Positions 4,290 to 13,460 of a stretch of 24,423 nt of DNA are shown in pieces (the stretch's first letter is position 1; each line of letters starts with the position of its first letter). This stretch comes from a virus, in the IMG/VR virus record IMGVR_UViG_3300032322_001134, positions 1 through 24,423 of that record; one strand, written 5' to 3'. Position numbers and translations under genes: made by a program. Below the pieces are notes generated by a model. The model worked only from the letters and a program-made list of their open reading frames with translations. It made no database searches and was not told the DNA's origin.

Positions 4290-6323
4290 TTATCCTTGTC
4301 CTAGTGCGATAATAAGTGGTGTTAGAGTTGCTTGAATACTCTTATTGAAAGCATCTCCAGTAATTGTTCCTGTTTGTTGATTGATTGTAAATCCATCACC
4401 AATTCTGAAATTTCCCTTTTCATCTGTTGATGTATAGACTACAATTCCGCCATTTTCAGAAATCACCATATTTTCTGGAATTGATACACCTCCAGTAGAA
4501 GGAAAAGATGTAGCAATTGTAGTACCAGAACCAATGTATTCAAATGTATATGAAGATGCTAAGATTAATGATTGCTTAGCAAACGGAACTGTAGATCCAA
4601 CTCCAATATTTGATGGTAAATTTTGATCAAGAGTAATTGTAGATACGCCAGCAGTAGGCGTTGTAGCACTATTTATAGTGAAATATGCTGGTCCAATTTC
4701 CGCAATAGCAGTTGCAGTTGCAAGTCCAACATTAGGTGCTGCAATAGTAACTACTGGAGGAGTTCTGTATTGATTACCTGTTGAAACAAGATCAACCGCA
4801 GTAACAGAACCAAATCCACTAACAACTGCTACCGCTTCAGCAGTAATTCCACCAGGTCCACTTGGAGACCCAACAGTAACTCTAGGAGGATTTGCAGAAG
4901 TATACCCAGCACCAGATGATGTTACAGTTATTCTTGTAACTGTATTAAATAATTCACCAATATATAAGACTTGTCCAGTAAATGGTCTTTCAGATCCCAA
5001 ACCAGAAACTTCAATAACATTGTTTTCAGCAACAGCAGCAGTTGTTAAAATACCAGTATAACGAACTGTACCAATTCCAGAAGCGATTAATCCAACATTT
5101 CCAAATGATGCGTTTGAATTATTCAAATCACAAGATCCACCAGAGTAACAAGAAATAGCTCTATCACAACAAATTGTAAAGATAGAAACTAACTGTGCGT
5201 ATCCATCATTTGTAATAGAAACACCAATGCCACCTTGATTGTATTGAGTATAACTATCACAGACCATGGATTTTGTTCCCTCAGCATGTCTACCATTAAT
5301 TTTCATTCCAATACTATTTGGAACAAAATTAGTACAGTTTCTAATATATGGAGACTGGGTAATAATGCCAGTATTTGATGCTGGATTAAATGCAATCATT
5401 GCACCAGTATTTGCTGCTCCAACAAAAGACATATTCTGCAGCAAATTGCCATTATCGACATAAAATAAATCTTGTCCAATATTTGTTGGTATAATTTGAG
5501 TATGTCTTAGATCATCACCATCAATTGTAATATTTTTTGGTATAATAATAGGATTATTTTCTGGATATACGCCAGCAGTAACACGAATTACTTGTCCAGC
5601 AGTTGCAATACCACAAGCTGCTTTAATTGTTCTTTTTGCTGATGTTGGAGATCTTCCATTATTACTATCACTGCCATCTTGTGTTACAAAAATTACATTA
5701 AATTCACTTGATCCTACTCCTGTCCAAACAAGTTCACCAGCAGCATTTGCACCAAGAACAGAACTAGCACTACCAACAGAACCAGAAGCATCTAAGAAAG
5801 TTCCACCAATTTGAACATATCCATTACTACTATCATCTCTTGGACGTTTTACTTGGAATAAGTATTCTGGTACAGATGTTCCAATACCGACACGATTTGT
5901 TGTTGGATTATAATAAAGTTGATTAGCTCCTCCAAACTTTCCATCAGTCTTTCTATATTGAATTTGAAAGTCTGTGCCTGCAGCATTAACTTGTATTTCT
6001 GCAAGATCGGTCCAAGAAACAGCGGTCCCAACACTTTTTAAAACTTGTCCGTTAGTTCCAGAAGTGTTGTTTACATCATACAATTCTTCATAAAATTGAA
6101 CAGATCCACGAAAATCAGCATCTCTTACTGGTTGTGTGCTACCAATACCAATTTGTCCAGCAGCAACAATACCATCAAAATTTGCAGTAAGAGCAACATC
6201 CAATCCATAAGAAGGATCGGTTTTACCTACACCAGTTCTATTATTATCGGCATCTACAAAAAGAGCCTGATCTCCAACTTCGAGACCTTTTTCTACTGAA
6301 AATCTCTTATTGACAGATGCCAT
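4290..6323 (-). CDS. Beta-helix (pectin-lyase-like) tail structural protein, 677 aa
   Basis: The N-terminal 220 residues carry fibre-type motifs (NRTGVGKTDPSYGLDV, NRVGIGTSVPEYLFQV), which are short anchor repeats in phage fibres. From about residue 220 a right-handed beta-helix is suggested by VTQDGSDSNNGRSPTSAKRT and by IRVTAGVYPENNPIIIPKNI, the usual opening of pectin-lyase-like phage proteins. Residues about 450-560 hold two G-x-G-Y / P-P-x-V-T beta repeats. The C-terminal part (YTFEYIGSGT, GGIVVYTSTDEKGNFRIGDG) has clear counterparts in the 1819-residue neighbour, so the two are paralogous in modules. No obvious catalytic Asp/Glu triad can be asserted. It is probably a tail-side structural or receptor-contact protein. 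An AAGGAG Shine-Dalgarno precedes the ATG. Confidence 0.8.
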   Translation of the reverse strand: MASVNKRFSVEKGLEVGDQALFVDADNNRTGVGKTDPSYGLDVALTANFDGIVAAGQIGIGSTQPVRDADFRGSVQFYEELYDVNNTSGTNGQVLKSVGTAVSWTDLAEIQVNAAGTDFQIQYRKTDGKFGGANQLYYNPTTNRVGIGTSVPEYLFQVKRPRDDSSNGYVQIGGTFLDASGSVGSASSVLGANAAGELVWTGVGSSEFNVIFVTQDGSDSNNGRSPTSAKRTIKAACGIATAGQVIRVTAGVYPENNPIIIPKNITIDGDDLRHTQIIPTNIGQDLFYVDNGNLLQNMSFVGAANTGAMIAFNPASNTGIITQSPYIRNCTNFVPNSIGMKINGRHAEGTKSMVCDSYTQYNQGGIGVSITNDGYAQLVSIFTICCDRAISCYSGGSCDLNNSNASFGNVGLIASGIGTVRYTGILTTAAVAENNVIEVSGLGSERPFTGQVLYIGELFNTVTRITVTSSGAGYTSANPPRVTVGSPSGPGGITAEAVAVVSGFGSVTAVDLVSTGNQYRTPPVVTIAAPNVGLATATAIAEIGPAYFTINSATTPTAGVSTITLDQNLPSNIGVGSTVPFAKQSLILASSYTFEYIGSGTTIATSFPSTGGVSIPENMVISENGGIVVYTSTDEKGNFRIGDGFTINQQTGTITGDAFNKSIQATLTPLIIALGQG

Positions 6324-6349: not shown

Positions 6350-6357
6350 TATTTATC
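6350..6357 (-). promoter_or_regulatory. T4-type late promoter box GATAAATA
   Basis: The minus strand reads GATAAATA, overlapping the stop codon of the 1819-residue gene. It lies 26 bases upstream of the ATG at 6323, with an AAGGAG Shine-Dalgarno between. It would serve the three-gene unit 6323-3366. Confidence 0.5.
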
Positions 6358-9300
6358 ACAAAATTCTCATAATATATGCAAGAGCATAATATGGTGGTCT
6401 GTTTTCATGCGATTGCCCACCACCAGTATTGTTTACTGTTACTGAGTGTGAGTGATCTCCAGCACTATCGATGGATAGTGAGTGTGAGTGATCTCCAGCA
6501 CCGCTAATGGATATTGAGTGTGCGTGATCTCCGACACTGTTAATACTAATTCCAGTCGTTTGACTGTTTGTATTTCCAACAAAATTGCCAGGATCTATTA
6601 CGAAATCTCTATTTCCACCAGCTCCAGCACCAACATTATCACTACTTTCTAATGTATGGAAGTGTCCAGGATCATTTATACTATGACTGTGACCGCCAGC
6701 AGAACCAGTAGATCCACTATGCCCATGGCTTCCTGCACTACCAGTAGACCCAGAGTGACTATGATTTCCTGCAGTATTTGTAGACGCTGAGTGATTATGT
6801 GATGGAATTTGATCAGTGGTTAATGTTACCGAATTAGATCCACCAGTGTTTCCAACTGAATATCCACTACCAGCTCCAACAATAAATCTATCTCTTAAAT
6901 CTGGAGTTCCACTTGAACCATTACAAAGTGCCCATCCTGTAGGAATGGACGCAATTGCTCCAGACCACATAATAATTCCACCAATAGGAATTGTTCCAAA
7001 TCCATCAAATTTATAAGCAGTAGAAATTCCAGTTACATCAGTATTTCCAGTAGTTTTAGTATCGCCAACAACTTCAAATTTATAAGCATTATTGACATAT
7101 GTTACACCAATGCCAACTTTATCATATACATAATGATCGCTTGTACATTCTTGAGAAATTTTACCCCATCTCTTCCATGCACTTGCAATATTTGGTTCAT
7201 TAGTTTTTACCCATCCAATGTATCCACCTCTAGTAAATGAGGTTCTGAATAGAATGGTATCATTTGCACTATTTGGACAAGTATCTCCACCTCTAATGCC
7301 AACATAAACTGTTTGTCCAATATTTCCAGATCTATTTCCAAGTAAAGCTAAGTCTACTACTTCGGTATTTCCTTTACTATACAAATTGTTATTAACTGTG
7401 AGATCATCAACAGTTAATGAGGTAAGTATATTTCTAAAAGTAGCAGACCCTTCGCCAAATAATCCTGCAGCTCCAAGACCAGTTACACTATTAATTTTAC
7501 TCTTACCAATATAGAAATCACCACTATCATTCATACCAGTATAAACAACCAATCCACCTCTGGTTTGAACTGATTGAGAAAGTAAAGTTGCATTTTCATC
7601 AAGAACTCTATCTTGAGTTTGTGGCATAGCAGTTGAATAATTACCAGGACCATATCCAAGATATTCAAATGTATGTCCAGAAGCACGGAGAATAGAATAT
7701 CTTCTATTTTCTACAGGAAGAACTTTTATCCTTCTAACTGCAACATTAGCATCGTGAGGAACTGCGTTAGTTCCTAACATTCCTCTGAGGAAAGAAGTGC
7801 CAGTTTTATTGGCAACTCTTACAATTTCATCTTCAATTAATAGATAATCTCCACGCTTCAACAATGAGGTACTGCTGATACCGATTGATGTTGTTGTAGT
7901 TGTTATTCCAGAAGTTATTTTTCCTGTAAATCCGCCGTAGATTGGAATTCCTCTACTTCTACCGCGAATTGATATGCCTGTTCCATGTGCTGTAGCAACT
8001 CCAGTAAGCACTGGAGCATCACTAGTAGAACCAATATTAACTAGCAACGAAGAACCATATCCCACTCGTTCACTAATAAAGTGTGACCCATTATAAATTG
8101 TCGAAAGTCCAGTGCATCCAGAAATAACTATTTGATCACCAGTTCTTAGTCCAATATCGGACGTTAATAGAACAGTAGCAATTCCACTTAATGCATCATG
8201 ACTAATGCTTACAATGTTAGTTGAAACGCCAACATGATATAAAAATCCTCCAGTAGAAACACCACTGGCGGTTCCCTTATATTCAATTGTTTTTGAATTT
8301 GGTACATTACTTATTCTATAAAGACCATTATAAGATGTGCTTCCAACGCCAACTACCTGAATTATGTCTCCAATTTTGTTATCAATTGTAGTAACAGTAA
8401 TGGTAGAATTTGTTCCAGACGCATAACGAGGTACACCAGCAATAGTCAATACATCACCAACAGAATATCCAGACCCATGATCTATGATAGATACATCGAC
8501 GATAGCACCGATAGATGAAACCGTGACACTTGCAGTTGCTCCTTTTCCACTACCTCCAGTTAGTCTAATATTATAATAATATTCAACACCACCACTGTTT
8601 GTCCCATAATTAGTACCACCAACAAGTGATCCTAAACTTAAAATTCCATTTAAGTTGTGCTCTACATTAGTATTGACAATTAATGTTGATCCAGAAACAG
8701 AAGCTCCTGTTATTCCAATACCAATACCAGTTTGTTCAAATAATGAAAATAATGCTTCTTTTGAAATACTATCAGAAGGATCACTACTTTCTACCTGTCC
8801 AGGCAAATCACGTAAAGCATAACTGGTTGTAGCGTTAGGATCATCATTAGAATTATCTTTTCCAACAGAAGGAATTAAATCATTTAAATTTTGAGCAAAT
8901 CTATTTGAAGATGTTGAAAACGGATAAACATCTGGAGTTTTTAAATATCCTAAAATTACTAAATTATAAATTCCATCCTGAATATCTTTCTTATATTTTT
9001 GTTTTTCAATTGTATTGTAAATTTGATAAGAAGGTCCAAAATCTTTTTTAACAAAATATGGATTAAATGTTCTTCCAGAACCTACTATAGATTGATCAAA
9101 TAATGTGTAAGGAGAATTTGCGGTAATCGTTGAAATTGTTCCTGGATTTGTGTTTAATCCGATAGTAAATGTTTTACTATCTGTAATTGCTAAAACTGTG
9201 TATAATCCATTAAACCCAGAATTTTTTTCTCCTGAAGTATTGTTTGCACTCTTAAGTCTGTTAATTTCTACTAAGTGACCTTCTTTTAAAGTATGTGGAT

Positions 9301-11815
9301 ATTGTGTTGTAATAATACCAACATTTGAAGACCAAGAAGCGTCAATAATATTTGTTTTTGTTCTTAAACTTGTTCCAGAAGTTAACGTAGTATTGTCATT
9401 TTTATACGTATCATCATCAATTGCAGCACTACTTTCTTCTATTGAAAATCCATTTAAAGGTGGTGCTGCAATAGTTGCAGTATTTGGAATAACATATTTC
9501 AAACGATAGATTTTTTCTTCGTCTTTTCTATTATCAGGAAATCTATAAACAAAAGAATTGGCAGTTTTTGGTGTTATTTTTGCTTGATTTGCTACTATTG
9601 CAGATTTTAAACTATTAGCAACACCAACATTAATATACCATCCAGTACTATCGTATTGAATGGGATGTCCAGGATCTCCAGGATTTTTATCTACAACACT
9701 AGAAACAATGCGAAGAGTTCCGCCAAGATTATTAATACCAACTAATTCATCACCAGCAATTGCATTATTATATGTTGTTGCAATTTTAATTTGATCTGCA
9801 TTTAATGCATCTGTAATTGCATAATATACTGTTTTGTGTTCTATTCCATCAGGTAAAGATCCATTATCTGAATAAATCCTAATTGATTCCCCAGGAAATA
9901 GTCTATGATTTTGTTGTAGAGTAAAAACGTTTCCTGTAATTGAGTTAATGCCCGCAGATCTTCCTACATAATACTCTTTTTTTCCAGACGTTCTATTATT
10001 TACTGCCGTGCCTGGAACAGGCATTAATACGTCAGCACCATAAACAATATTATCAATATTACAATGTATAGTTTCGCCAACTTTTGCGCCTATTGTGTAC
10101 TCACCAGCATTTTTTGGTGGTATAGTATCTTTTTGATTGTACCCATAGAAATATAGTTTAGCATCTGTTGATAATCCAGCTGTTGTATCAACATCAAATG
10201 GTAAGTAGTTAATTTGTGATACTTTTGTAAAGTTTTTTTGAGCAGGAATAATTTCGGTTATATATCCTTGATCATCTTTAACAAATGCTTCTATTCTAAA
10301 CTTATCAGATTCTAATGCCTTTGCACCAAAGTTGGAGTTTGAGTTGGTGATTGACATATCACCACCAGATTCAGCCACAAAGTGAGAAGCATATCCAATC
10401 GCAAAAATAGAAACACATTGAATAAATGCGTTATTTGATGCTTTAATATGGAAGTTTTGCCAAGTTGGTTTATGCCTTGCTCTACTATCAGTATGTAATG
10501 ATACAGTAGTTCCTAAATCTGATTGATCTTGCCAAATTCCAGATGTTGTATTGTATTTGACATACGCATTATCATCTTTATTTAATGCAATACCAGTAAA
10601 CTGAGCGACAACCATGGATTTAAATCCAGTTGCCTTGTCACCATCTGCGTGCATACCACACAAACCATAAACCGATCTAATAGAGCAGTTGAATACATAT
10701 GGTGAACATGACGTTACCGTATCAGATTCTACAGTAACAATCGGATTTTTTCCGATTAAGCTAGGATTTGCTGTCGAAGATGGTGTTGATACTAAGGAAT
10801 ATGTAAATGTAGTGTCGTCAATAATCTGAGATACAATATAACTACCATCATATTCAGCATTTCCTACGCCAAAAATAAGGACAGGAGTTCCTACAGAAAA
10901 CTGATGATTTGTCCTTGTAACCACAGTAACTACTGGAGTTGCTATAGATGATGATGGATTAGAACCAGAGTAAATATCTTGGATTTCAATATCACCAATC
11001 TGAGAAATTGCACCTACAATTCTCGATTCGTCAACAGATGCTTGGAAATCATTATTTGCTGGATAATCTGGCAACTGTCTACCAGAATTAACACCATAAG
11101 CTAAAGTTAGCTTATGATAGTACATATCAAGATCTGTATTATTTTTTCCAGTAACAGTGTTTACACCATCAGCATACTCAAAGCACGTAAGTTTATGGTG
11201 TGAATAATTTGGAGAATATACTGATTTTGTAAAATCTCTATAAACTCTATCCCCTGGATCAGCATCAAAAAAACTAAATCCAAAGAAAAAACATCCACCA
11301 GTTACTCTAAAAATTGCAGATCTAGGAATGTTATCATTAGATGGCTCTGGTACATATTTTGGTCTAATTTTTGTTTTTCTTAGATCCTGACCAACAATGG
11401 AAGTACCACGAGGTAGAATTACACCACCATGAATTGAGTTAAAAAGATACAGAACATTGTCTGGATCTTGAATATCAAAATTAGTTCCTACAGAAAATTG
11501 ATTAATTGATGCCGCAGATCCATTTACATCGGTTAAATTGCCATTATTATCAATTGCAAGTCCTGGTCTATTGTCAATATAGTGAACCCCAGGAGATACT
11601 AAGATTGTAGTCTTATCAAATCTATCGTTATTTTGTCCAGATTGATAAGAAAATCTAGCACTTTCTAAAAGAGCACGTTGAATAGTCTTAAAAGGACGTG
11701 TTCTTGAGTTGCCAGTGTTACTAATATCATCTGTTGCGTCAAGTTCTTCAGGATTGACGTATATTACATTTCCTTGAACGTTTTTGAGGAAATTTTCTAA
11801 TCTACTTAATGGCAT
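6356..11815 (-). CDS. Giant beta-helix tail protein with C-terminal tail-collar domain and His-x-His arrays
   Basis: 1819 residues, the largest gene here. The N-terminus has VIYVNPEELDATDD and SRTRPFKTIQRALLES, then ILVSPGVHYIDNRPG, the opening of a pectin-lyase-like beta-helix. A central part (about residue 370-520) shares SIFAIGY and SITNSNSNFG with the 677-residue protein, and about residue 1360-1460 shares HTFEYLGYG and GGLVVYTGMNDSGDFYIG. From about residue 1605 there is a phage tail-collar domain (IPIGGIIMWSGAI, PTGWALCNGSSGTPDLRDRF), as in T4 gp12 and related fibres. The last 150 residues carry eight H-x-H motifs in two arrays and end ENRPPYYALAYIMRIL, a typical collar-family ending. 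Metal binding by H-x-H pairs is known from T4 gp12 and gp37; here it is inferred. It is probably a long host-contact tail structure. A perfect late box lies 33 bases upstream. Confidence 0.85.
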   Translation of the reverse strand: MPLSRLENFLKNVQGNVIYVNPEELDATDDISNTGNSRTRPFKTIQRALLESARFSYQSGQNNDRFDKTTILVSPGVHYIDNRPGLAIDNNGNLTDVNGSAASINQFSVGTNFDIQDPDNVLYLFNSIHGGVILPRGTSIVGQDLRKTKIRPKYVPEPSNDNIPRSAIFRVTGGCFFFGFSFFDADPGDRVYRDFTKSVYSPNYSHHKLTCFEYADGVNTVTGKNNTDLDMYYHKLTLAYGVNSGRQLPDYPANNDFQASVDESRIVGAISQIGDIEIQDIYSGSNPSSSIATPVVTVVTRTNHQFSVGTPVLIFGVGNAEYDGSYIVSQIIDDTTFTYSLVSTPSSTANPSLIGKNPIVTVESDTVTSCSPYVFNCSIRSVYGLCGMHADGDKATGFKSMVVAQFTGIALNKDDNAYVKYNTTSGIWQDQSDLGTTVSLHTDSRARHKPTWQNFHIKASNNAFIQCVSIFAIGYASHFVAESGGDMSITNSNSNFGAKALESDKFRIEAFVKDDQGYITEIIPAQKNFTKVSQINYLPFDVDTTAGLSTDAKLYFYGYNQKDTIPPKNAGEYTIGAKVGETIHCNIDNIVYGADVLMPVPGTAVNNRTSGKKEYYVGRSAGINSITGNVFTLQQNHRLFPGESIRIYSDNGSLPDGIEHKTVYYAITDALNADQIKIATTYNNAIAGDELVGINNLGGTLRIVSSVVDKNPGDPGHPIQYDSTGWYINVGVANSLKSAIVANQAKITPKTANSFVYRFPDNRKDEEKIYRLKYVIPNTATIAAPPLNGFSIEESSAAIDDDTYKNDNTTLTSGTSLRTKTNIIDASWSSNVGIITTQYPHTLKEGHLVEINRLKSANNTSGEKNSGFNGLYTVLAITDSKTFTIGLNTNPGTISTITANSPYTLFDQSIVGSGRTFNPYFVKKDFGPSYQIYNTIEKQKYKKDIQDGIYNLVILGYLKTPDVYPFSTSSNRFAQNLNDLIPSVGKDNSNDDPNATTSYALRDLPGQVESSDPSDSISKEALFSLFEQTGIGIGITGASVSGSTLIVNTNVEHNLNGILSLGSLVGGTNYGTNSGGVEYYYNIRLTGGSGKGATASVTVSSIGAIVDVSIIDHGSGYSVGDVLTIAGVPRYASGTNSTITVTTIDNKIGDIIQVVGVGSTSYNGLYRISNVPNSKTIEYKGTASGVSTGGFLYHVGVSTNIVSISHDALSGIATVLLTSDIGLRTGDQIVISGCTGLSTIYNGSHFISERVGYGSSLLVNIGSTSDAPVLTGVATAHGTGISIRGRSRGIPIYGGFTGKITSGITTTTTSIGISSTSLLKRGDYLLIEDEIVRVANKTGTSFLRGMLGTNAVPHDANVAVRRIKVLPVENRRYSILRASGHTFEYLGYGPGNYSTAMPQTQDRVLDENATLLSQSVQTRGGLVVYTGMNDSGDFYIGKSKINSVTGLGAAGLFGEGSATFRNILTSLTVDDLTVNNNLYSKGNTEVVDLALLGNRSGNIGQTVYVGIRGGDTCPNSANDTILFRTSFTRGGYIGWVKTNEPNIASAWKRWGKISQECTSDHYVYDKVGIGVTYVNNAYKFEVVGDTKTTGNTDVTGISTAYKFDGFGTIPIGGIIMWSGAIASIPTGWALCNGSSGTPDLRDRFIVGAGSGYSVGNTGGSNSVTLTTDQIPSHNHSASTNTAGNHSHSGSTGSAGSHGHSGSTGSAGGHSHSINDPGHFHTLESSDNVGAGAGGNRDFVIDPGNFVGNTNSQTTGISINSVGDHAHSISISGAGDHSHSLSIDSAGDHSHSVTVNNTGGGQSHENRPPYYALAYIMRIL
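6440..6550 (-). repeat. 36-bp repeats encoding His-x-His 12-residue units
   Basis: The gagtgtgagtgatctccagc stretch at about 6444 recurs exactly 36 bases later, with a third, diverged copy following. Each 36-bp unit codes for a 12-residue block of the form D-H-S-H-S-x5-A-G. A second, more diverged array of the same period lies at about 6690-6800 in the same gene. Confidence 0.8.
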
Positions 11816-11819
11816 TACC

Positions 11820-11827
11820 TATAAATA
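11820..11827 (+). promoter_or_regulatory. Perfect T4-type late promoter TATAAATA (rightward)
   Basis: The plus strand reads CTATAAATACAG, a full match to the late consensus including the following C. It lies 31 bases upstream of the ATG at 11859 and supports that start over the upstream in-frame ATG at 11784, which lies within the opposite gene and before the promoter. Confidence 0.8.
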
Positions 11828-11848
11828 CAGAGACACCGTTCTTCTTTG

Positions 11849-11856
11849 TATTTATA
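11849..11856 (-). promoter_or_regulatory. Perfect T4-type late promoter TATAAATA (leftward)
   Basis: The minus strand reads GTATAAATAC, a full consensus match. It lies 33 bases upstream of the ATG at 11815 of the 1819-residue gene. It faces the rightward box at 11820-11827; the two form the ends of a 37-bp segment. Confidence 0.8.
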
Positions 11857-11858
11857 CT

Positions 11859-12578
11859 ATGGCAAGTGGTCCAAAGACAAATTATTTGATTTCGACTTAC
11901 AAGAAATCTGTTGAACAAGATAATACACAAAAAGAACAGCTTCAGAAAGTATTATCTGGGATTGAAATAAGAACAGATGATAATACAGATCCAGAATATA
12001 TTATTGAAGGATTGGATAAAAGAATAGATGCGTATAATCCATCCACAAGAGGACTAGATAAAAAAATTTTACAAATAAATCAGCAAATTAGATCTCAACA
12101 GCAACAAATTTTAATTCTTGGTCAAGAAGCTAATGTTCAAGGATGTGGAATTACCATAAGTCCAGATATTCAAGAAGTTGTGGGAGATGAAGTAACGTTA
12201 TATTCTTGGTCTTTTTCTGGCAATAATCCTTTTGTTGAAAGCTCACAAGTTCTATCAGAATCTAATATTGGATTTGGAACTTATACTGGAATAACTACAA
12301 TAAGTCTTGGAACATACATGGAGTTTGATCCATCAGGAATTTGTGCTGGATATGCAAATTCAATAACAACAATATTAAATGGATTAACTACTTTTAGAAC
12401 TGAAAGAAATAATATTATTAATCAACTTAATCTTATAAAAGAAGCTAGATCTGTATTAGAACTTCAGCGATATGGATACACAAATTTACAAGATCAACTA
12501 AATGCTGAGATACAAAAAAAGAACACTATAATAAGTGTTCTTGAAAATCCAATTAATCAACAATATTTTGAAGAATAA
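11859..12578 (+). CDS. Coiled-coil virion-associated protein, unknown function
   Basis: 239 residues from the ATG at 11859 (MASGPKTNYLISTYKKSVEQ). The frame is open back to 11784, but that start precedes the late promoter. Two helical, Gln/Lys/Glu-rich sections (about residues 10-90, with LDKKILQINQQIRSQQQQIL, and about 175-230, with NNIINQLNLIKEARSVLELQ) look like coiled coils. They flank a beta-rich centre (about 95-165) with NVQGCGITISPDIQEVVGD and GFGTYTGITTISLGTYMEFD. A coiled coil, beta domain, coiled coil arrangement suits a fibrous or bundle-forming virion protein. It is one of only two plus-strand genes, has no evident Shine-Dalgarno, and ends with its stop codon abutting the stop of the convergent gene. 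Function not recognised. Confidence 0.75.
   Translation: MASGPKTNYLISTYKKSVEQDNTQKEQLQKVLSGIEIRTDDNTDPEYIIEGLDKRIDAYNPSTRGLDKKILQINQQIRSQQQQILILGQEANVQGCGITISPDIQEVVGDEVTLYSWSFSGNNPFVESSQVLSESNIGFGTYTGITTISLGTYMEFDPSGICAGYANSITTILNGLTTFRTERNNIINQLNLIKEARSVLELQRYGYTNLQDQLNAEIQKKNTIISVLENPINQQYFEE
12514..12542 (-). terminator. Intrinsic terminator for the leftward islet transcript
   Basis: A perfect 9-bp inverted repeat (12519-12527 with 12534-12542, 6-base loop) is followed on the minus strand by a run of seven T (12520-12514). It lies 37 bases beyond the stop codon of the minus gene ending at 12579, and inside the 3' coding end of the plus-strand gene. On the plus strand no T-run follows, so it should act leftward only. 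Confidence 0.8.
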
Positions 12579-13460
12579 TTATGAAGTGAGTTCAATTGCT
12601 TCACAATTATAAACTTTTCCAGTGCTCAAAACTTTGTAGTTCCATTTCCAGTCTGGATCACCACTAGAATAAACTTCTATTATTTGTATGTTAAAATCAA
12701 AGGAATTTTGTTCTATATATTGGTTAGCATCATTTGATGTATAAAATGCCATTGTATCTTCATCAACCCCAGGTTCAAACGTATTATTTTTACGTAACCA
12801 TTCAATACCATCAGATGTTTTTTTGTAAATTCGATAGTAAATATGCTTAGGAATTCCTACATCCCCAAATGCGCATTGTTCAATATCAACATCATTTCTT
12901 TGTACTTTAATTTCTCCAGTATGTGAGTAAATAGCTCCAGAATTTACTTTATACCAAAAAATAAAATCTGGTTCTCCAAAGTCATAAAATTCAAATATAT
13001 CTACTCCAACTGGTATATTTTTAAATGTTGATAAAAACTCTTCGGCTTTATCCTTATGGACGAATAAAGATGGTTTTTCTGGTATATTTGAGGTAAAACT
13101 ACCATCTAAATTTAACCAAGATACCCCAACAGGACAATGCAATTTTCCAATTCTATAATAAACTTTTTTATAAAGAGGAGTTTTTAATGTAGGAACTTCA
13201 ATAGGTTCAGATTTTTCATTGTATGGAAATGGAAGGTGATCTATTGCTTCCTTTGCCTTTTCTTTAGTTGAAAAATGATAAACATCTTCTGGAGCACAGT
13301 TTGAAAGAAAAGCAAAATTATCTTCATTATAAGTAAATGAATCTAAATTTGATGTCCCTTCTGGGCCTACTCCAGGAGTTGACATGTTATCATCGGACAA
13401 ATAATATAAATGTCCCTTTGCAGTTTTTACGCAAACACGATATACATTCTTATCAAACAT
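12579..13460 (-). CDS. Triple-repeat protein of unknown function
   Basis: 293 residues made of three related blocks, beginning near V6 (VYRVCVK), V100 (VYYRIGK) and I207 (IYYRIYK). Blocks 2 and 3 share W-L at the fifth strand, an acidic A/aromatic segment (DKAEEFL; NDANQYI), and the ending E-x-Y-x-x-G-[DE]-P-D-x-x-x-x-Y-K-V. Block 1 is diverged and shortened, keeping FSTKEKAKEAI. I know no family of this form. The repeats alternate predicted beta strands with one helix, as in small alpha/beta modules that bind a ligand or oligomerise. It lies between the tRNA genes and a terminator, so it belongs to the accessory islet rather than to the fibre operon. No good Shine-Dalgarno is seen before the ATG at 13460. 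Confidence 0.75.
   Translation of the reverse strand: MFDKNVYRVCVKTAKGHLYYLSDDNMSTPGVGPEGTSNLDSFTYNEDNFAFLSNCAPEDVYHFSTKEKAKEAIDHLPFPYNEKSEPIEVPTLKTPLYKKVYYRIGKLHCPVGVSWLNLDGSFTSNIPEKPSLFVHKDKAEEFLSTFKNIPVGVDIFEFYDFGEPDFIFWYKVNSGAIYSHTGEIKVQRNDVDIEQCAFGDVGIPKHIYYRIYKKTSDGIEWLRKNNTFEPGVDEDTMAFYTSNDANQYIEQNSFDFNIQIIEVYSSGDPDWKWNYKVLSTGKVYNCEAIELTS

Follow-up and report, generated by a model that had tools for sequence, protein, structure and literature searches.

The locus analysed here raises the question of why two late promoter boxes should point at each other between two divergent genes. The window, that is the whole stretch of 24,423 bases under analysis, is an uncultured viral record from a marine T4-like phage; it was scanned on both strands, and the sequence TATAAATAC was detected at 11820-11828 (+) and at 11856-11848 (-) and nowhere else. 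On the plus strand, the letters at 11820-11828 read TATAAATAC and those at 11848-11856 read GTATTTATA. The two late boxes are thus identical and aim inward, with 21 bp separating the octamers; the original prediction of two perfect boxes placed face to face at 11820 (+) and 11856 (-) is borne out in both coordinates and orientation. The pair sits exactly at the only place in the window where two genes diverge, a gap of 43 bases delimited by the ATG at 11815 (-) and the ATG at 11859 (+). The ATG of the tail fibre gene lies 4 bases outside the edge of the neighbouring box and the ATG of the plus-strand gene 2 bases outside the edge of the other. The box at 11848-11856 (-) is assigned to the tail fibre gene (11815-6356), whose ATG follows the end of the box after 33 nt, and the box at 11820-11828 (+) to the gene 11859-12578, for which this distance is 31 nt. 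In most of the other boxed genes of the window, the box is found 20-34 nt ahead of the ATG. Both boxes are perfect matches to the late box of the T4 type (TATAAATA, or NATAAATA in cyanophages), and their placement, with these short leaders before late (structural) genes, is that of late promoters.

The minus-strand gene (6356-11815) encodes a giant tail fibre protein of 1819 aa starting with MPLSRLENF. It displays DNA similarity to the tail fibre protein of S-CAM9 and a weak match to a collar domain, and its start resembles that of tail fibre genes of the Kyanoviridae, S-CAM9 being an example. The plus-strand gene (11859-12578) is a late gene of 239 aa, for which no family was recovered from Pfam and PHROG. 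The model of its product (pLDDT 83) consists of long helices (residues 5-33, 66-93 and 160-229) around a small beta part, and its fold match is an uncharacterised protein of S-CAM9 (TM 0.78). A profile of the plus-strand protein recovers the S-CAM9 homologue AOV60165.1 (E 2e-24), which is likely the same protein as the fold match; its gene lies within the gene run located just downstream of the baseplate hub gp5 in S-CAM9. A role in the virion or in tail assembly is plausible for the plus-strand gene. The homologue at locus L705 contains 440 aa, of which three stretches match the profile, as if the domain were repeated. On the other side, a gene of 293 aa (12579-13460, minus strand) converges on the plus-strand gene, the two stops being adjacent (12578/12579); it has no match in Pfam or PHROG, and the 80 nt that precede its ATG are free of late boxes.

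The positions of the transcription starts were predicted from the geometry of T4 late promoters, where the box spans -13 to -6 (PMC1524935) and the DNA is melted from -12 to +2 (PMC7892883). With this spacing of the box, transcription would start at 11833 (+) and 11843 (-), both positions being an A, and the leaders would be of 26 and 28 nt, respectively. The two RNAs would overlap at their 5' ends over 11833-11843, that is 11 nt, close to the ten bases or so first proposed. Each box would be located at about +17 to +23 of the opposite start, beneath the other polymerase, so that joint open complexes on one DNA copy would be impossible. The mutual blocking of polymerases that had been suggested for this locus fits this geometry, and exclusion of one promoter by the other is expected, by analogy with T4, on a single DNA copy. 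Such exclusion on one copy does not imply a biological switch.

The reading that we favour, and which is very probably correct, is that of a compact bidirectional late promoter, in which two separate promoters of the T4 type (gp55-dependent) are interleaved face to face. The minus-strand promoter would serve the tail fibre gene and the plus-strand promoter the small coiled-coil gene, each box being placed inside the leader of the opposite gene. A late promoter needs only an 8-bp box and each gene a leader of about 25 nt; interleaved, the two take up 43 bp, as against some 72 bp otherwise. Only one promoter would be open at a time on one DNA copy; with many replicated copies, both genes would be expected to be expressed together late in infection. 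We infer that gp55-RNA polymerase recognises the boxes, and likewise infer both start sites, the overlap of 11 nt and the steric exclusion; the presence of gp55, gp33 and gp45 in this phage, of which the record covers a fragment of 24 kb, is presumed. Compaction accounts for the layout, to which a regulatory role may be added.

The relatives of this junction were fetched by protein and not by promoter. The plus-strand protein alone recovered no relatives among viral contigs, but an alignment of four such proteins led to eight loci in IMG/VR, in addition to the single-cell phage AG-345-D19. All the relatives found through this protein retain both boxes, while the spacer between them differs in sequence and in length (21, 20 and 18 bp). 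The loss of one box in close relatives, which the original prediction had named as a sign against itself, was not seen: the relatives with both genes keep the pair. In the AG-345-D19 type, the first letter of one box is A rather than T, and an A replaces the C that comes after the other, changes that are tolerated by the NATAAATA promoter, the first base of which is N. It is at such tolerated positions alone that the distant members depart from the consensus.

The N-terminus of the fibre protein was also searched in IMG/VR, and the leaders of 80 loci (66 distinct) were read, the homology of the divergent proteins being checked by profile. The fibre gene's own box is present in nearly all the fibre leaders of marine T4-like phages. 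The opposing late box is present in 16/16 of the distinct leaders with a divergent homologue of the plus-strand gene and in 0/50 of those without it, a contrast for which the P value of 1e-15 is too strong a measure, because the fibre tree displays only about three independent changes of layout. In close relatives without the plus-strand gene, the site of the box reads GGATTTATA, GGATTCATA, GGATTAATA and similar sequences, or is partly deleted. Judged from these leaders, the plus box looks like an element selected as the promoter of the divergent gene. The spacer (11829-11847) also contains GGTGT on the fibre strand, which is kept by most relatives, even those without the plus-strand gene, and which may represent an element of the fibre leader.

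The 16 leaders with both genes are divided between two layouts. The facing layout is found in seven of them, with 40-43 nt between the ATGs. The nine others (L695, L701, L705, L708, L710, L711, L716, L719 and L722) all fall in one well-supported clade, where the boxes of the fibre leader abut back to back (TATTTATTGATAAATA) at a distance of two bases and the ATGs are 70-74 nt apart. The distance from the fibre promoter to its gene is constant across both packings, and only the arrangement differs. These longer gaps of the back-to-back relatives support compaction. Because this sister clade carries the same gene pair back to back, the facing layout would be a packing solution and not a required switch, and the sister clade constitutes the best evidence for that reading.

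The same layout was detected elsewhere in the T4 superfamily. Among the IMG/VR matches listed, which were compared with matched controls, an ORF starts just outside both boxes in 36/86 distinct cases of perfect facing pairs, against 13/85 for a wider spacing, 11/82 for back-to-back pairs and 1/86 for scrambled boxes. Many of the perfect facing pairs in IMG/VR fall at the junction of gp4 (head closure). The starts of gp4 were also surveyed independently of any promoter pattern; of the 76 distinct junctions obtained, 53 contain facing boxes (0.07 expected by shuffling). Their spacing is comprised between 8 and 30 bp with a median of 20, and the helical phase that was sought in these spacings was not found (Rayleigh p about 0.8). 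In T4 itself (NC_000866), a relaxed scan of the divergent junctions revealed facing boxes at gene 4/gene 53 (76885-77975) and at inh/segE (111327-112674); those of gene 4/gene 53 are positioned at 77337/77385. The strict pattern gave pairs at 71917 and 144430, which were rejected as divergent promoters and are instead the segB and I-TevI hairpins. Overlapping outward late boxes are found at T4 26/51. One facing pair in a divergent junction was detected in each of Syn9, P-HM2, P-SSM4 and S-CAM9; the junction is annotated gp48/gp4 in Syn9, where a CTAAATA and an ATAAATA box face each other at 5141/5179, and gp4/hypothetical in P-HM2.

It had also been proposed that the pair acts as a switch or ratio control, the mutual exclusion of clamp-bearing polymerases setting an inverse ratio between the fibre and the coiled-coil protein. 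The impossibility of joint occupancy described above agrees with this proposal, as does the persistence of the layout over a large divergence, both at the fibre junction and at the gp4 junctions. Bidirectional promoters of E. coli do compete when one direction is strongly activated, but show no competition that could be measured when they fire weakly (PMC12825309); clamp-aided late promoters may, by analogy, be active enough for it. Against a switch, the boxes of this gene pair stand back to back in the sister clade, where the gap exceeds that of the facing layout by about 30 bp, the spacing is loose (8 to 30 bp at the gp4 junctions) and free of helical phase, and the two boxes show no asymmetry, both being equally perfect. 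Moreover, the many genome copies present late in infection would average out the exclusion. The proposal is thus left unsupported, and we regard it as unlikely.

The main rival to compact packing is an RNA hairpin switch of the T4 type, as in genes e, soc, I-TevI and segB, where the box is the 5' arm and the 3' arm lies beside the start codon. Read-through RNA would then be untranslatable, late RNA starting inside the hairpin would be translated, and the second box would merely be the complementary arm. The window does contain an inverted repeat whose 14-bp left arm (11820-11833, plus strand) takes in one box and pairs with a right arm (11843-11856) that takes in the other, and a hairpin is possible in read-through RNA. 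The arms stop 2-4 nt short of the ATGs and the fold is strong: the 14-bp stem has a folding energy of -12.6 kcal/mol (z -5.5) and matches in strength the T4 stems of I-TevI (-11.6 kcal/mol) and segB (-13.2 kcal/mol), which are facing box pairs lying within a known hairpin and a proposed one, respectively (PMC3014915, PMC2988022). In addition, the two boxes carry the same base at -12 (A/A or C/C), and are thereby complementary at that position, in 45/53 of the gp4 junctions with facing boxes, whereas 27 are expected (L513-L592).

However, the stem decays in relatives to -8.8, -7.0, -4.1 and -1.6 kcal/mol while both boxes persist. The positions beside the box core show no excess of pairing at the gp4 junctions (32 vs 29; 13 vs 11.6), and we have set aside the covariation at -12 as stem pairing since the neighbouring positions show none. 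It more likely reflects a lineage-wide box preference, and the match may correspond to a phage-wide preference of gp55 for ATAAATA or CTAAATA. The second arm is absent from 50/50 fibre leaders without a divergent neighbour and is therefore not an element of the fibre leader. Finally, neither gene has a co-directional gene immediately upstream, the upstream neighbour of each running the opposite way. On the folds, the arm pairing and the dependence on the neighbouring gene, the hairpin was rejected as a conserved function, and as an explanation of the locus it is quite improbable; an added hairpin role may exist in this one phage.

A still bolder reading, which we consider very unlikely, treats the facing pair as a regulatory element of ancient origin in the T4 superfamily, in which fork direction and mutual exclusion together would set the ratio of divergent late genes. 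A promoter is served by the gp45 clamp only if the clamp has been loaded with one polarity (PMC7892883), so that facing boxes would need clamps of opposite polarities. If this reading were true, the direction of the replication fork would help to set the ratio of two divergent late genes.

A chance origin of the facing pair is excluded. In order-1 simulations of 24.4 kb, a facing 9-mer pair with an inner spacing of 10-30 was obtained in 0/3000 cases and a facing 8-mer pair in 6/3000, figures computed before counting the placement in the sole divergent junction. The alternative that one of the boxes matches by chance, with a single promoter in use, can be dismissed as extremely improbable, for although TATAAATA by itself occurs in the AT-rich window at chance frequency (3 seen, 3.35 expected), the 9-mer pair does not arise in the simulations and every relative of the facing clade with both genes retains both boxes.

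Interleaved facing promoters have thus been a repeated solution for divergent late junctions, from T4 to uncultured marine phages. Late gene pairs can be mined from genomes by a simple rule, the layout of facing boxes, and the junctions represent a natural system in which polymerase competition under clamp-activated transcription can be tested. They also carry a warning, as box pairs that resemble hairpins may be two promoters, and pairs that resemble two promoters may be hairpins.

Among known systems, the closest are the late promoters of the T4 type (gp55/gp33/gp45). They have the same box (TATAAATA at -13 to -6; PMC1524935) and the same distance to late genes, in the same phage superfamily, with the box variants NATAAATA in cyanophages and CTAAATA in Aeh1 (PMC2988020, PMC2984593, PMC1524935). 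The cited passages describe these promoters singly, whereas the present junction has a facing pair. Facing late boxes are likewise found in T4 between gene 4 and gene 53, that is between head-closure and baseplate genes and thus at other genes than here; no experiment on that pair was found in the searched literature, nor any description of face-to-face pairing at divergent junctions. The bidirectional promoters of bacteria (Warman and Grainger, PMC12825309, PMC10268837) also have opposite initiation sites and accept one polymerase at a time, but they are pseudo-symmetrical and take up polymerase in either orientation through shared elements, in contrast to the two separate full boxes about 20 bp apart observed here. 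In convergent promoters with transcriptional interference (e.g. PMC6593788), the promoters are likewise opposing and the polymerases collide or occlude each other, whereas here each RNA is predicted to serve as a productive mRNA for one of two adjacent divergent genes, with an overlap of only about 11 nt. The T4 hairpins at I-TevI, segB, e and soc share with this junction a late box that is an arm of an inverted repeat by a start codon, but they involve one gene and co-directional read-through, unlike the two divergent genes and the non-conserved stem of the present locus. As a promoter architecture, the facing pair is genuine, under selection and recurrent, and it combines ordinary parts in a layout of which the searched literature gave no description.
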